Positions 30,376-51,581 of a stretch of 64,000 nt of DNA are shown in pieces. The number at the start of each line of letters is the position of its first letter. Within the stretch, counting starts at the first letter, position 1. The stretch is taken from the NCBI RefSeq assembly GCF_947495965.1, contig NZ_CANMBB010000010.1, forward strand, positions 1 through 64,000. Direction: 5' to 3'. The translations under genes were made by a program, and so were the position numbers. The stretch is from an uncultured Maribacter sp. Lineage in GTDB: Bacteria; Bacteroidota; Bacteroidia; Flavobacteriales; Flavobacteriaceae. The notes below the pieces were generated by a model. It searched no databases. It was not told the DNA's origin and worked only from the letters and a program-made list of their open reading frames with translations.

Positions 30376-30438
30376 AGCTATATTATTTTTTCAGTTTGAT
30401 TAGAAAAAAAAGAAACAAATATTTCTTTTTACAATTTG

Positions 30439-30511
30439 CACGGCAGGAGAGACTCGAACTCCCGACACCTGGTTTTGGAGACCAGTGCTCTACCAACTGA
30501 GCTACAACCGT
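30439..30511 (-). tRNA. tRNA-Trp (anticodon CCA)
   Basis: Reverse complement ACGGTTGTAGCTCAGTTGGTAGAGCACTGGTCTCCAAAACCAGGTGTCGGGAGTTCGAGTCTCTCCTGCCGTG folds as a cloverleaf with loop CTCCAAA. Confidence 0.95.
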
Positions 30512-44663: not shown

Positions 44664-44699
44664 AAAACCCTGTTACTTATAACAAAGTAACGGGGTTTT
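44664..44699 (+). terminator. Intrinsic terminator after yceI
   Basis: AAAACCCTGTTACTT-ATAACA-AAGTAACGGGGTTTT. Confidence 0.85.
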
Positions 44700-44719: not shown

Positions 44720-44750
44720 TTGGCTGTTTTAAAAATCCTTTATATATTTG
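44720..44750 (+). promoter_or_regulatory. trp operon promoter (TTG-N20-TATATTTG)
   Basis: TTG at 44720-44722, TATATTTG at 44743-44750, directly upstream of trpL. Confidence 0.65.
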
Positions 44751-44757
44751 ATGCATA

Positions 44758-44814
44758 ATGAGGAATAAAAAAACAAATACTTGGTGGTGGAGTAACTTAC
44801 GAAAAACAACGTGA
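44758..44814 (+). CDS. trpL: trp operon leader peptide MRNKKTNTWWWSNLRKTT
   Basis: 18-codon ORF with three consecutive Trp codons between a promoter-like sequence and an intrinsic terminator, upstream of trpE; too short for the ORF track. Confidence 0.9.
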   Translation: MRNKKTNTWWWSNLRKTT

Positions 44815-44878
44815 GCAAAGCATCATTGTAGTAAAACTATATATAAGGCTTGTCATCACGACAAGCCTTTCCTTTTTT
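44796..44878 (+). promoter_or_regulatory. trp attenuator: pause hairpin 1:2, antiterminator 2:3, terminator 3:4
   Basis: Terminator AAGGCTTGTC-atcac-GACAAGCCTT then tccTTTTTT (44845-44878); 1:2 CTTACG/CGTGAG; 2:3 CGTGA/TCACG plus GCAA(A)GC/GCTTGT. Confidence 0.85.
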
Positions 44879-44900
44879 AAAAAACTTAATACTTTATCTA

Positions 44901-46298
44901 ATGAAATATCAATTAGAGACACATTTTAAAAAAATTCTTGCAGATACCATTACTCCGGTTAGTGTGTATTTAAAAATTAGAGACCGTTTTCCTAATAGCA
45001 TCCTACTAGAAAGTAGCGATTACCATGCTAATGATAATAGTTTCTCTTATATATGCTGTAACCCAATTGCATCTATTAAAGTAGAGAACGAGGTAATCTT
45101 ACAGCAATTTCCAGATGGTACTTCAGAAGAAATAAAAATTAAAGAAGATACAAATGTTGTTTCTATACTAGATAATTTTAGTAGAAAGTTTAAAGGCAGT
45201 AAAAACGACTTTAAGTTTATAAACAATGGTCTTTTTGGGTATATGGCGTATGATGCTGTACGGTATTATGAAGATGTAGAACTTGCTAAAAAAGAAAATA
45301 GTGCTACTATTCCAGATATTTATTATGCCGTATATCAAAATATAATAGCTATAAACCATTTTAATAATGAAGCTTATATTTTTGCGCATTGTTACAATAG
45401 CAATGAAAATATTGCCGAAATAGAACAAATTTTAAACATCAGAAGTTTTGCTTCTTATAATTTTACTACCCAAGGAGAACCAACTTCTAACTTAAAAGAT
45501 GAAGAATATAAAGAACATGTAGAACTTGCTAAAAAACACTGCCAACGTGGCGATGTTTTTCAACTGGTACTTTCTAGACGTTTCTCTCAAGAATTTAAAG
45601 GAGATGAGTTTAATGTATATAGAGCATTACGTTCTGTAAACCCATCCCCCTACCTATTTTATTTTGATTATGGCGATTTTAAAATCTTTGGTAGTTCTCC
45701 AGAGGCGCAACTAATTGTAAAAGAAGGCAAAGCAGAAATTCATCCTATTGCAGGTACTTTTAAAAGAACAGGCAATGATGAGCAAGATGCTATTCTTGCA
45801 AAAAAACTTACTAAAGACGACAAAGAAAATAGTGAGCATGTAATGCTCGTAGACCTTGCTCGTAATGACCTTAGTAGAAATGGGAATATGGTTAAAGTAG
45901 AAAACTATAGAGAAGTACAATTCTTTTCCCATGTTATACACTTAGTTTCTAAAGTTACAGGACAAAAGAAAGAAGACATACCAACCATGAAAGTAGTAGC
46001 AGATACTTTCCCTGCAGGAACTTTAAGTGGCGCACCTAAACATATGGCAATGCAACTTATAGAAAAGTATGAAAAAACAAGTAGAGGGTATTATGGTGGC
46101 GCCATTGGCTTCATGGATTTTGAAGGTAATTTTAACCATGCCATAATGATTAGAACTTTCTTAAGTAAAAACCACCAACTACACTACCAGGCAGGTGCAG
46201 GTATAGTTGCTGCCTCGAAAGCAGAAGATGAATTACAAGAAACATACAACAAATTAGGTGCTTTAACTAAAGCATTGGAAATAGCAAAATCTATCTAA
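44901..46298 (+). CDS. trpE: Anthranilate synthase component I
   Basis: ATG at 44901 (the track start at 44850 lies inside the terminator hairpin); GDVFQLVLSRRFSQEF; IAGTFKRTGNDEQD; PAGTLSGAPKHMAMQLI. Confidence 0.96.
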   Translation: MKYQLETHFKKILADTITPVSVYLKIRDRFPNSILLESSDYHANDNSFSYICCNPIASIKVENEVILQQFPDGTSEEIKIKEDTNVVSILDNFSRKFKGSKNDFKFINNGLFGYMAYDAVRYYEDVELAKKENSATIPDIYYAVYQNIIAINHFNNEAYIFAHCYNSNENIAEIEQILNIRSFASYNFTTQGEPTSNLKDEEYKEHVELAKKHCQRGDVFQLVLSRRFSQEFKGDEFNVYRALRSVNPSPYLFYFDYGDFKIFGSSPEAQLIVKEGKAEIHPIAGTFKRTGNDEQDAILAKKLTKDDKENSEHVMLVDLARNDLSRNGNMVKVENYREVQFFSHVIHLVSKVTGQKKEDIPTMKVVADTFPAGTLSGAPKHMAMQLIEKYEKTSRGYYGGAIGFMDFEGNFNHAIMIRTFLSKNHQLHYQAGAGIVAASKAEDELQETYNKLGALTKALEIAKSI

Positions 46299-46319: not shown

Positions 46320-46886
46320 ATGAAAAAAATATTAGTCATAGATAATTACGATAGTTTTACCTATAATTTGGTACACTATTTAGAAGATTTAGATTGCGAA
46401 GTTGTTGTAAAACGTAACGACCAACTTAGTTTAGAAGAGGTTGATGCTTTTGATAAAATTGTACTTTCTCCAGGACCTGGTATTCCAGATGAGGCTGGTT
46501 TACTAAAACCAATAATAGAAAAATACGCTCCTACCAAAAGTATCTTTGGGGTGTGCTTAGGGCAACAAGCCATTGCAGAAGTTTTTGGTGGTTCTTTAAT
46601 AAATATAGATCAAGTTTATCATGGTATTGCTACTAAAATAAAAATTACCAAACCAGAAGATGTTTTATTTAAAGGATTAGATACGGAGATTGAAGTGGGG
46701 CGTTACCACTCTTGGGTGGTTAATCCGGATTTACCAGAAGTTTTAGAAGCTACTTCTTTTGATGAAAACGGACAAGTAATGTCCCTTCGTCATAAACTAT
46801 ATGATGTTTCTGCGGTACAATACCATCCAGAATCTGTACTTACTCCTAATGGAAAAAAAATACTAGAAAACTGGGTAAAGAGTTAA
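46320..46886 (+). CDS. trpG: Anthranilate synthase component II (glutamine amidotransferase)
   Basis: LVIDNYDSFTYNLVHYLE; SPGPGIPDEAG; FGVCLGQQAIAE; QYHPESVLTPNG. Confidence 0.96.
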   Translation: MKKILVIDNYDSFTYNLVHYLEDLDCEVVVKRNDQLSLEEVDAFDKIVLSPGPGIPDEAGLLKPIIEKYAPTKSIFGVCLGQQAIAEVFGGSLINIDQVYHGIATKIKITKPEDVLFKGLDTEIEVGRYHSWVVNPDLPEVLEATSFDENGQVMSLRHKLYDVSAVQYHPESVLTPNGKKILENWVKS

Positions 46887-46972
46887 AGCACTGTAAAGAG
46901 TACAAAGTATTAAGTAATAAGGCTACTCAAAACACTTAATACTAATTACTTAAGATTTAATACTAAAGAAAA
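46887..46972. repeat. AT-rich TTAAGTA/TACTTAA-type inverted-repeat spacer between trpG and trpD
   Basis: GAGTACAAAGTATTAAGTAATAAG ... CTTAATACTAATTACTTAAGATTTAATACT; same family as the trpF-trpB spacer. Confidence 0.5.
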
Positions 46973-47965
46973 ATGAAACAAATATTAAACCGACTTATTA
47001 ATCACGATATTCTTGAAAAAGAAGATGCCAAACAAGTATTGGTAAATATTGCTAAAGGCGATTATAATACCAGCCAAATTGCAGCTTTCTTAACTGTATA
47101 CATGATGCGTAGCATTACTATAGAAGAGTTAGAAGGCTTTCGTGATGCTCTTTTAGAACTTTGCCTTGCAGTAGATTTATCTGCCTATAACCCTATTGAT
47201 TTATGTGGTACTGGTGGTGATGGTAAAGATACTTTCAATATATCTACCTTATCCTCTTTTGTTACCGCTGGCGCTGGTGTTAAAGTTACCAAACATGGAA
47301 ATTATGGTGTTTCTTCTGCCTGTGGTAGTAGTAATGTAATGGAATATCTTGGTATAAAATTTAGTAATGATGCTGGCTTTTTAGAAAAGTGTTTAGCAGA
47401 TACAGGCATTTGTGTACTACACGCACCACTGTTTCATCCTGCCATGAAAAATGTTGCCCCTATCCGTAGAGAGCTTGCTGTAAAAACGTTTTTTAATATG
47501 TTAGGCCCAATGGTAAACCCAGCCTTTCCTAAAAACCAAATGGTAGGTGTTTTTAATCTAGAACTAGCAAGAATGTACGGGTATTTATATCAGAATACCG
47601 ATAAAAACTTTACCGTATTACACGCTCTAGATGGTTATGATGAAATTTCATTAACAGGAGATACCAAAACCATATCTAACCATACCGAGGGAATTATAAA
47701 ACCTTCAGATTTTGGATTACAGCCTATACAACAATCGCAAATTTATGGTGGCGATACGGTAGAATCTTCTGCAAAAATATTTATGAATGTTTTAGAAGGC
47801 AAAGGAACAGAACCGCAAAACAATGTTGTTTGTGCTAATGCTGGTGTTGCTATTGCAACTGTGAAGAACCTTACGCCAAAAGAAGGTTTTGAACTTGCTA
47901 AAGAATCCTTATTAAGTGGCAAAGGATTACAAACTCTTAAAAAATTACAAAACCTTAGCGCCTAA
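46973..47965 (+). CDS. trpD: Anthranilate phosphoribosyltransferase
   Basis: DLCGTGGDGKDTFNISTLSSFVTAGAGVKVTKHGNYGVSSACGSSNVMEYLG. Confidence 0.97.
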   Translation: MKQILNRLINHDILEKEDAKQVLVNIAKGDYNTSQIAAFLTVYMMRSITIEELEGFRDALLELCLAVDLSAYNPIDLCGTGGDGKDTFNISTLSSFVTAGAGVKVTKHGNYGVSSACGSSNVMEYLGIKFSNDAGFLEKCLADTGICVLHAPLFHPAMKNVAPIRRELAVKTFFNMLGPMVNPAFPKNQMVGVFNLELARMYGYLYQNTDKNFTVLHALDGYDEISLTGDTKTISNHTEGIIKPSDFGLQPIQQSQIYGGDTVESSAKIFMNVLEGKGTEPQNNVVCANAGVAIATVKNLTPKEGFELAKESLLSGKGLQTLKKLQNLSA

Positions 47966-48747
47966 TGAATATATTAGAAAAAATAGTTATAGATAAACGC
48001 AAGGAGGTAGCTTTACGTAAATCTTTAATTCCTGTTTCGCAATTAGAAAGTTCTGTGCTTTTCTCTAGAGAAACCGTTTCTTTAGCAACTGCATTAAAAA
48101 ATAGCGCTACTGGTATTATTGCAGAACACAAAAGACGTTCTCCATCAAAATCGGTAATAAACCACACTTTAAATGTACAAGATGTGGCTACTGGTTATGA
48201 AAACGCTGGGGTTTGTGGCATGTCGGTTTTAACCGATGGCAAATATTTTGGCGGTTCTTTAGACGATTTATTAATAGCAAGAGCAGCTGTAAAAATGCCT
48301 TTGTTACGTAAAGAATTTATTATAGATACGTATCAAATTCTAGAAGCAAAAGCATATGGTGCAGATGTTATTTTACTAATTGCAGCCATACTTACTAGAG
48401 AAGAGATAAAAACCTTTTCAGAGTTTGCAAAAAGCCTAAATTTAGAGGTACTTTTAGAAGTGCATAACCAAGAAGAGTTACAAAAATCTATTATGCCAAG
48501 TTTAGATATGTTAGGGGTAAACAACCGTAACCTTAAAACTTTTGAAGTAAGCCTAGTAACCAGTAAAAAACTCTCCACCTTAATTCCGGACGATTTTGTT
48601 AAAGTTTCCGAAAGCGGTATTAGTTCTATAGAAGCGATTAAAGAATTACAGCCTTTTGGTTTTGAAGGATTTTTAATTGGAGAAAATTTTATGAAAACCA
48701 ACAATCCTGGCGAAAGTGCAACCTCTTTTATTTCTAATTTAAAATAA
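47965..48747 (+). CDS. trpC: Indole-3-glycerol phosphate synthase
   Basis: IIAEHKRRSPSKSVI; LLRKEFIIDTYQILEAKAYGADVILLIAAIL; LGVNNRNLKTFEV. Confidence 0.97.
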   Translation: MNILEKIVIDKRKEVALRKSLIPVSQLESSVLFSRETVSLATALKNSATGIIAEHKRRSPSKSVINHTLNVQDVATGYENAGVCGMSVLTDGKYFGGSLDDLLIARAAVKMPLLRKEFIIDTYQILEAKAYGADVILLIAAILTREEIKTFSEFAKSLNLEVLLEVHNQEELQKSIMPSLDMLGVNNRNLKTFEVSLVTSKKLSTLIPDDFVKVSESGISSIEAIKELQPFGFEGFLIGENFMKTNNPGESATSFISNLK

Positions 48748-48752
48748 TTGAG

Positions 48753-49427
48753 ATGAGCGATTATTATTACACACAAAAAAAAGAGTTTAAAAAAGAGGGC
48801 CCTCCAAAACTTAAAATTTGTGGTATGAATCTTAATATCTCCGAAGTTGCAAGCTTAACTCCAGATTATTTAGGATTCATCTTTTGGGAACCTTCAAAAA
48901 GATGTTTTAATAGCCAAATGCCAGAGCTACAACACAGCATTAAAAAAGTTGGCGTATTTGTTAATGAAAGTCTTCAGGAGATCTTATACAAAATACAGGA
49001 ATACAATCTTTTAGGGGTACAATTACACGGAAAAGAAAGTCCAGAATTCTGTAAAGAATTACAAGAAAAAGCCAAAGGAATTGAAATTATTAAAGTGTTT
49101 TCTATAAAAAATGAATTCAATTTTGAGGTTTTAAAAGATTTTGAAAATGTGTGTAATTTCTTTTTGTTTGATACTAAAGGAAAACTTCCAGGTGGCAATG
49201 GTTATACCTTTGATTGGAGTGTGTTAGAAAATTATCCTTCAACCAAACCCTTCTTTTTAAGTGGTGGAATTGGCCTTGAAGAAGCAGCTAAAATAAATGC
49301 ATTTTTACAAACCGATGCCTCTAAATATTGTTACGCATTAGATGTAAATAGCAAGTTTGAAATAGAACCAGGATTAAAAGATATTGAAAAATTAAAGCAG
49401 TTTATTAGTAGAGTACAGAGTAAATAG
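48753..49427 (+). CDS. trpF: Phosphoribosylanthranilate isomerase
   Basis: KLKICGMNLNISEVASLTPDYLGFIFWEPSKR; VQLHGKESPEFC; FFLSGGIGLEEA; likely start is downstream of 48753. Confidence 0.95.
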   Translation: MSDYYYTQKKEFKKEGPPKLKICGMNLNISEVASLTPDYLGFIFWEPSKRCFNSQMPELQHSIKKVGVFVNESLQEILYKIQEYNLLGVQLHGKESPEFCKELQEKAKGIEIIKVFSIKNEFNFEVLKDFENVCNFFLFDTKGKLPGGNGYTFDWSVLENYPSTKPFFLSGGIGLEEAAKINAFLQTDASKYCYALDVNSKFEIEPGLKDIEKLKQFISRVQSK

Positions 49428-49620
49428 TATTAAGTACAAAGTAGTTAGTATAATGTATTAAGTAACACTAATAACTTAGAACTTTTAATTTAGAAAACAA
49501 TTATTACCAACATGAACACTTAGGACTCATTACTTAAGACTTAGTACTAACTACTTAAGACTTGCGACCTAAAATAAATAAAATGTAAAACGGAGTACTT
49601 ACTACTTTGTACTCAATACT
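49426..49620. repeat. 195-bp inverted-repeat-bounded spacer between trpF and trpB
   Basis: AGTATTAAGTACAAAGTAGTTAGTA (49426-49450) pairs 23/25 with TACTTACTACTTTGTACTCAATACT (49596-49620); interior has repeats of ACTTAAGACTT. Confidence 0.7.
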
Positions 49621-49630
49621 TATAAACGAT

Positions 49631-50812
49631 ATGAATTATAACGTTGACGAAAGAGGCTATTACGGAGACTTTGGCGGGGCATTTATTCCAGAAATGCTTT
49701 ATCCAAACGTAGAGAACCTTAGACAAAACTATCTAAAAATAATGGCGGAACCTTCTTTTAAAGAAGAGTTTGATCAACTATTAAAAGATTATGTGGGTAG
49801 GCCATCACCGCTTTATTTGGCAAAAAGGTTGTCTAAAAAATACAATACTAAAGTCTATCTAAAAAGAGAAGACCTAAACCATACTGGAGCACATAAGGTA
49901 AACAATACTATTGGTCAAATATTAATGGCCAAACGCCTTGGCAAAAAACGTATTATTGCCGAGACTGGCGCAGGGCAACACGGTGTTGCAACTGCTACCG
50001 TTTGCGCATTAATGGGAGTGGAATGTATTGTGTATATGGGAGAGATAGATATTGCACGCCAAGCACCGAATGTTGCTCGTATGAAAATGTTGGGTGCAGA
50101 AGTACGCCCTGCATTATCGGGCAGTAGAACTTTAAAAGATGCCACCAACGAAGCTATCCGCGATTGGATTAACAACCCTGTAGACACCCATTATATTATT
50201 GGTTCTGCTATTGGCCCTCATCCCTACCCTGACATGGTAACTCGTTTTCAGTCGGTTATTTCGGAAGAGATTAAATGGCAATTAAAAGAGAAAGAAGGAA
50301 AAGAAAATCCGGATTATGTTATTGCTTGTATTGGCGGTGGTAGTAATGCGGCAGGTACCTATTACCATTATTTAGACGAAAAAGATGTGAAAATAATTGC
50401 TGTAGAAGCAGCAGGTATGGGCGTAGATTCTGGGGAAAGTGCAGCAACCTCAGCATTAGGAAAAGAAGGCGTTATCCATGGTTGTAAAACCTTATTGATG
50501 CAAACTACTGACGGACAAATAACTGAGCCTTATTCTATTTCGGCAGGTTTAGATTACCCAGGTGTGGGCCCAATGCACGCACATTTACACAAAACAGGAA
50601 GAGCAGAATTTATCTCTGCTACAGATGATGAAGCTATGCAATCTGGACTGGAATTAACCAAATTAGAAGGTATTATTCCTGCTATTGAAAGTAGCCACGC
50701 ATTGGCTGTTTTTAAACACAAAACTTTTAAACCAGAGGATGTGGTGGTAATTAGCCTTTCTGGTCGTGGAGATAAAGATTTAGATAATTATATAAAATAT
50801 TTCAATTTATAA
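49631..50812 (+). CDS. trpB: Tryptophan synthase beta chain
   Basis: KREDLNHTGAHKVNNTIGQILMAKRLGKKRIIAETGAGQHGVATATVCA; CIGGGSNAAGTYYH; ATG at 49631 preferred. Confidence 0.98.
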   Translation: MNYNVDERGYYGDFGGAFIPEMLYPNVENLRQNYLKIMAEPSFKEEFDQLLKDYVGRPSPLYLAKRLSKKYNTKVYLKREDLNHTGAHKVNNTIGQILMAKRLGKKRIIAETGAGQHGVATATVCALMGVECIVYMGEIDIARQAPNVARMKMLGAEVRPALSGSRTLKDATNEAIRDWINNPVDTHYIIGSAIGPHPYPDMVTRFQSVISEEIKWQLKEKEGKENPDYVIACIGGGSNAAGTYYHYLDEKDVKIIAVEAAGMGVDSGESAATSALGKEGVIHGCKTLLMQTTDGQITEPYSISAGLDYPGVGPMHAHLHKTGRAEFISATDDEAMQSGLELTKLEGIIPAIESSHALAVFKHKTFKPEDVVVISLSGRGDKDLDNYIKYFNL

Positions 50813-50819
50813 ATTGACT

Positions 50820-51581
50820 ATGAATCGTATTAAACAAAAACTACAAGAGGACAAAAAGTTACTCTCTATATATTTTAGTGCTGGTTTCCCTACTTTAAAG
50901 GATACTGTAACTATTATTCAGGATTTAGAAAAAAATGGAGTAGATTTTATTGAGATTGGCCTTCCTTTTTCGGACCCTTTGGCAGATGGCCCTACCATAC
51001 AAGAGAGCTCTACTATTGCCCTTAAAAATGGGATGACTACAGAGGTTCTTTTTAATCAATTAAAAGATATACGTAAAACGGTAAGTATTCCGCTTATTAT
51101 CATGGGATATTTTAACCCTATGTTACAATATGGTGTAGATGCTTTTTGTGCTACCTGTGCTGAGATTGGGATAGACGGACTTATTATACCAGACCTTCCG
51201 TTAGATGTATATGAACGTGAGTATAAAGCCACGTTTGAAAAATATGACTTATTAAATATCTTTTTAATTACACCACAGACTGGTGATGACCGTATACAAC
51301 AGATTGATGCTGCTTCGGACGGATTTATATATATGGTAAGTTCTGCTGGGGTTACTGGCTCCCAATCTGGTTTTGGAAACACCCAAGAAGATTATTTTAG
51401 TAGAATAGAAAAAATGAAGCTAAAAAATCCGCAGGTAGTTGGTTTTGGTATTAAAGATGCGGAAACCTTTAAACAGGCTACAAAATCTACCAAAGGTGCT
51501 ATTATTGGTTCTGCATTTATAAAACATTTACATAAAGAAGGAGTTAACGGTATTGCCAATTTTGTGAAGACTATTCGCTAA
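50820..51581 (+). CDS. trpA: Tryptophan synthase alpha chain
   Basis: YFSAGFPTLKDTVTIIQDLEKNGVDFIEIGLPFSDPLADGPTIQESSTIAL; ATG at 50820. Confidence 0.97.
   Translation: MNRIKQKLQEDKKLLSIYFSAGFPTLKDTVTIIQDLEKNGVDFIEIGLPFSDPLADGPTIQESSTIALKNGMTTEVLFNQLKDIRKTVSIPLIIMGYFNPMLQYGVDAFCATCAEIGIDGLIIPDLPLDVYEREYKATFEKYDLLNIFLITPQTGDDRIQQIDAASDGFIYMVSSAGVTGSQSGFGNTQEDYFSRIEKMKLKNPQVVGFGIKDAETFKQATKSTKGAIIGSAFIKHLHKEGVNGIANFVKTIR

Follow-up and report, generated by a model that had tools for sequence, protein, structure and literature searches.

The leader that precedes trpE in the 64,000-nucleotide stretch of DNA analysed here (the window) is very probably a Bacteroid-trp attenuator, in which transcription is regulated by way of the ribosome, and as such would control the operon trpEGDCFBA. 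The locus is of an ordinary kind, genuine, and backed by good evidence. It combines a short reading frame rich in tryptophan codons, an intrinsic terminator, and between them a segment that can pair with the terminator loop; the same arrangement recurs in related genomes with compensatory changes and a fixed spacing.

Anatomy of the leader and its operon

The leader peptide is encoded by MRNKKTNTWWWSNLRKTT (44758–44814; all features are on the forward strand unless stated otherwise), a frame of 18 codons that opens with the ATG at 44758 and closes with a TGA whose final base is 44814. Three of its codons are adjacent Trp codons, TGGTGGTGG (44782–44790), presumed regulatory. Both the frame and its Trp codons are kept in relatives, the latter being nearly invariant, as the first-pass annotation had expected. 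Downstream lies a 10-bp hairpin, the 3:4 terminator (44845–44869), recognized from the sequence, by consensus scan and by pair covariation. Its arms and loop read AAGGCTTGTC-ATCAC-GACAAGCCTT and are followed by the T-rich tail TCCTTTTTT (44870–44878), so that an intrinsic terminator stands ahead of the first structural gene. On re-reading, the positions that the first-pass annotation had assigned to the 18-codon WWW frame, the hairpin and the T-run proved exact to the base. Its remark that the ORF finder mis-starts trpE within the terminator was also correct: the start chosen was TTG 44850, whereas the true start of trpE, which encodes anthranilate synthase component I (44901–46298; best match TIGR00564, E = 3.6e-131), is the ATG at 44901.

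Rarity is a property of the combination of frame, hairpin and tail. Taken alone, the Trp run TGGTGGTGG is not unusual: the genome contains 96 matches (overlaps counted). The window holds a single case of a short WWW frame with a perfect hairpin (9 bp or more) and a T-rich tail behind it, and none of 300 first-order Markov versions of the window has one. A pattern search of the genome for the terminator returned the single site 44847–44867; the terminator is thus not a genome-wide repeat. The predicted fold of the leader has an energy of −33.0 kcal/mol, compared with −20.1 ± 3.1 kcal/mol for dinucleotide shuffles (z = −4.1).

Segment 1, CTTACG (44796–44801), starts 6 nt 3′ of the last Trp codon and contributes to the inner 1:2 stem of the predicted fold. 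The first-pass annotation had drawn this stem as CTTACG/CGTGAG. The stem itself survives comparison, but its extent does not, since an outer stem continues it: the 3′ arm of the outer stem, CATCATTGTAGTA (44821–44833), pairs with 44778–44789 both in the predicted fold and in the Rfam model structure, and the Trp codons double as its 5′ arm. Segment 2 consists of a core, CGTGA (44810–44814), which holds the stop codon and starts 19 nt 3′ of the last Trp codon, and an extension, GCAAAGC (44815–44821), with GCTTGT (44848–44853) as its predicted partner. The target of the core is TCACG (44856–44860), that is, the terminator loop together with its closing base.

Downstream of trpE the operon continues with trpG, trpD, trpC, trpF, trpB and trpA, in this order (46320–51581). 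The gene upstream ends in a terminator-like hairpin of its own (44664–44699; 15 pairs in the consensus scan), which separates it from the trp operon, and the leader is therefore the operon's own. The window also holds a gene for tRNA-Trp (anticodon CCA; 30438–30511, minus strand), grouped with Thr, Gly, Tyr and Thr tRNAs; the attenuator expected to respond to the charging of this tRNA is about 14 kb away.

A candidate promoter lies immediately ahead of the leader frame. The sequence TATATTTG (44743–44750) matches TAnnTTTG, the −7 box of the Bacteroidetes sigma-A factor, which has been mapped at −12 to −5 in two flavobacteria (PMC6847099; PMC9723704). By this rule we infer a transcript start near 44754–44755. 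The 5′ untranslated region of the leader is thereby predicted to be only 3–4 nt long, and the leader peptide may have a nearly leaderless message. Among 73 leaders, 65 have a TAnnTTTG box no more than 60 nt from the ATG, compared with 4.5% of background windows; a predicted 5′ untranslated region of 4 nt or less is found in 26 of the 92 leaders having a box. Sites of the sigma-70 type, sought by consensus scan, were present at a frequency near the shuffle mean and are not the relevant type of promoter. A second ATG, 7 nt 5′ of the leader ATG and in another frame, opens the 5-codon frame MHNEE (44751–44768, stop codon 44766–44768); given the predicted start, this ATG would sit at the 5′ end of the RNA or upstream of it.

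Conservation and covariation of the pairings

For comparison, 101 leaders were taken in which a WW(W) frame is followed by a terminator, and 71 of these were aligned. Conservation across the leaders extends to the Trp run, to CGTGA and to TCACG, with which CGTGA pairs in the terminator loop. Trp codons and pairings alike are thus retained in relatives, one of the two points on which the first-pass annotation had let its reading stand or fall. The 3:4 terminator that it described is kept: 8 of its 10 pairs show two-sided changes, and 97.9% of cells are paired. The inner 1:2 stem is paired in only 70% of cells; its covariation nevertheless exceeds that of shuffles and of slid registers, and a 1:2 hairpin that could act as anti-antiterminator is present.

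The alternative 2:3 pairing divides into two parts. In the core, CGTGA/TCACG, 96.2% of cells are paired and two-sided changes are seen at 3 of 5 pairs, whereas a segment slid by 1–3 columns pairs in at most 46%. The extension, GCAAAGC with GCTTGT, is paired in 64% of cells. A covarying antiterminator alternative to the terminator is thus present in its core and weak in its extension. Of the 2:3 pairing as first drawn, the predicted core is strong; the extension into GCTTGT is lineage-specific and does not hold as a general feature.

Because the bases of CGTGA and TCACG barely vary, the core was examined separately in the 21 leaders that do not have the common loop CACGA. Here segment 2 paired better with the loop of its own leader than with the loops of others (mean scores 14.2 and 10.2), a preference matched in none of 2000 permutations, which ignore sequence kinship. 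The preference was unchanged when each of the 19 loops was counted once. The test is register-free, its controls were given equal freedom, and the loop regions were picked by script. It took the place of a test that required pairing at a fixed offset in 18 divergent loops and was too rigid; there, 20 of 5000 permutations attained the value observed. Compensatory pairs of segment 2 and loop are found in several lineages, as GCGAG/CTCGC, CGCAAT/ATTGCG, GAGAAGC/GCTTCTC and GGATTCA/TGAATCC, and even within one genus, where TGTGGG/CCCACA is set against TGCGGGA/TTCCGCA.

Spacing and the proposed switch

The position of segment 2 is set with respect to the Trp codons. Of 78 leaders with both the common loop and (C/T)GTGA, 74 have this motif starting 19–20 nt past the last Trp codon. 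The standard deviation of this distance is 0.68, compared with 4.1 when measured from the stop codon, 4.0 when the ATG is the reference and 4.9 for the distance to the terminator. The whole helix, TCGTGA, starts one base earlier, at 18 nt. The pairing sequence includes the stop codon in most lineages, where it is read as Ser/Thr-TGA; one group reads CGTGA within Phe-Val-Asn, ahead of the stop, and another has it 3′ of the stop. Since CGTGA is read differently by lineage, it is the RNA and not the peptide that is kept, and segment 2 keeps a constant distance from the Trp codons however the reading frame around it varies. Judging from the footprints of ribosomes, stalling on the last Trp codon would place segment 1 under the ribosome while segment 2 stayed free; a ribosome that had reached the stop codon would instead cover segment 2. 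The narrow range of distances between the Trp codons and segment 2 looks like a gauge of how far the stalled ribosome reaches.

The first-pass annotation had proposed attenuation by the logic known from enterobacteria. The conserved Trp codons, the 2:3 core, the 3:4 terminator and the spacing all bear this out, and it is from them that we infer the mechanism. Transcription would begin about 3–4 nt 5′ of the leader ATG. With charged tRNA-Trp plentiful, the ribosome would reach the stop codon inside segment 2 and mask CGTGA, and the 3:4 terminator would then form ahead of trpE. With charged tRNA-Trp scarce, the ribosome would stall on TGGTGGTGG, cover segment 1 and open the 1:2 hairpin. Segment 2, just past the edge of the stalled ribosome, would be able to pair with TCACG of the terminator loop while the loop is being synthesized, and at this locus with GCTTGT of segment 3 as well, so that the terminator would be blocked.

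In fold predictions, RNA freed of segment 1 and ending at 44860 adopts the 2:3 antiterminator. The fold of 44803–44878 is the terminator, at −14.7 kcal/mol compared with −13.0 kcal/mol for the antiterminator (equilibrium values for RNA without segment 1). Since the terminator wins at equilibrium once segment 4 is present, antitermination must rest on the order of synthesis. Such dependence is usual for attenuators.

The failure of the antiterminator to beat the terminator at equilibrium could also be taken to mean that the leader frame attenuates transcription without any 2:3 pairing, for example through a moving or stalled ribosome that acts on the polymerase or the transcript, with CGTGA/TCACG kept on other grounds. 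A few divergent leaders without clear loop pairing would be accommodated by such a mechanism. We regard it as improbable, however, in view of the compensatory changes that link segment 2 to the loop in several lineages.

It is highly improbable that the hairpin is a plain terminator, serving an upstream transcript or acting as a constitutive damper, and that the WWW frame is incidental. The 3:4 hairpin would be a strong terminator on its own, but the upstream gene is already provided with a terminator-like hairpin, and the combination of frame, hairpin and tail was absent from the shuffled windows. A plain terminator would also leave unexplained the conserved Trp codons, the spacing of CGTGA and the covarying loop pairing. 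That the leader is read by a protein or a small molecule instead of a ribosome is barely credible: TRAP and TrpR serve trp operons elsewhere, but neither TrpR (PF01371) nor TRAP (PF02081) was matched in this genome by searches that recovered both in control genomes, Rfam offers no other credible match at the leader that could be a Trp riboswitch, and neither TRAP, TrpR at the promoter, nor a riboswitch would account for the fixed distance from the Trp codons.

Family membership and wider occurrence

The ribosome-mediated attenuator described here has known relatives. Rfam family RF01692, Bacteroid-trp, matches 44738–44854 on the forward strand with 45.9 bits and E = 5e-4, over positions 1–131 of the 131 in the model. 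The score falls about 3 bits short of the gathering cut-off of 49 bits, and the locus is missed at that threshold. The leader nonetheless aligns over its full length to the consensus structure, and it has the short frame with Trp codons 5′ of a trp gene in Bacteroidetes (here the WWW frame, ahead of trpE to trpA). The leaders of congeners score 44 to 59 bits and share the architecture, so the locus narrowly misses the threshold and is not an element of another kind. In a search set of 120 genomes, made up of its own genome, relatives and members of the same order, RF01692 has matches in 79 at E ≤ 1, 46 of them above the cut-off; in a phylum-wide sample, 55 of 396 genomes have a match at E ≤ 0.1. 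The remaining low-scoring hits to Rfam models here, among them the PyrG leader and snoRNAs, have E > 0.2 throughout and were taken to be due to chance.

Bacteroid-trp has been on record since 2010 as a cis-regulatory RNA of Bacteroidetes (Weinberg et al. 2010, PMC2864571), and the RF01692 element has been likened to the E. coli leader and noted 5′ of the trp operon of Flavobacterium psychrophilum (PMC6414381). The match and these published records together place the locus, by sequence and predicted structure, in an already known RNA family; it is not a new discovery. The comparison with Rfam trp leader families suggested by the first-pass annotation thus yielded a match, and any novelty that the annotation may have implied is lost to a family published in 2010. 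A transcriptome study of F. psychrophilum describes leader-peptide attenuation 5′ of amino-acid operons; those of pheA and hisG are presented as new, conserved elements, whereas its main text makes no mention of trp (PMC9723704). Those attenuators are of the leader-peptide type and come from the same family of bacteria as the locus.

With Bacteroid-trp the locus shares its phylum, its place 5′ of trpE, the Trp codons and the long 1:2 hairpin, and it covers the whole model. The model differs in that it stops inside segment 3 (GGCUUGUC) and includes neither the terminator nor the 2:3 antiterminator seen here. The antiterminator pairing, absent from the Rfam model, can now be tested, and an RF01692 model that included terminator and antiterminator might recover members below the cut-off such as this locus. 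In the part of the literature searched, main texts only, no description was found of an antiterminator in Bacteroidetes trp leaders, nor of the fixed spacing, the near-leaderless start or the tandem duplication described below. None of these features, including the direction of the antiterminator toward the loop, is claimed as a first report.

The comparison with E. coli trpL was one of architecture. The two have in common the Trp codons of the leader frame, segments 1–4, the alternative 2:3 and 3:4 pairings, and a stop codon near segment 2. Unlike trpL, the present leader has three adjacent Trp codons that are themselves paired in the 1:2 stem, a 2:3 core aimed at the terminator loop, and a predicted 5′ untranslated region of only 3–4 nt. 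The well-known logic of attenuation appears to hold in a phylum that, to our knowledge, does without Shine-Dalgarno initiation. We suggest tentatively that the trp attenuators of Bacteroidetes might constitute a distinct design, with a leaderless or nearly leaderless peptide, a loop-aimed antiterminator at a fixed 18–19 nt from the Trp codons and, in one genus, a tandem two-step switch.

Two complete Trp attenuators stand in tandem before trpE in two related genomes of one genus, one of which is titled Ichthyobacteriaceae bacterium (L044, positions 102–358; L045, minus strand, about 1026–753, the same record as JADGDT010000099.1, L137). The first comprises MQKINTIWWWQSKL and a terminator, the second another WWW leader frame (MLNNKINNWWWPVLTQYAGQSCYNII in L044) and its terminator. 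A third genome of this genus, L046, has an attenuator of the second type only.

Six divergent leaders (L019, L064, L065, L069, L088 and L093) are without clear loop pairing of the flavobacterial kind. Three of them, L019, L088 and L093, belong to other families and have a YWW or WWW run and a different terminator such as GAGCCCTGTCGC; their antiterminator may be built differently.
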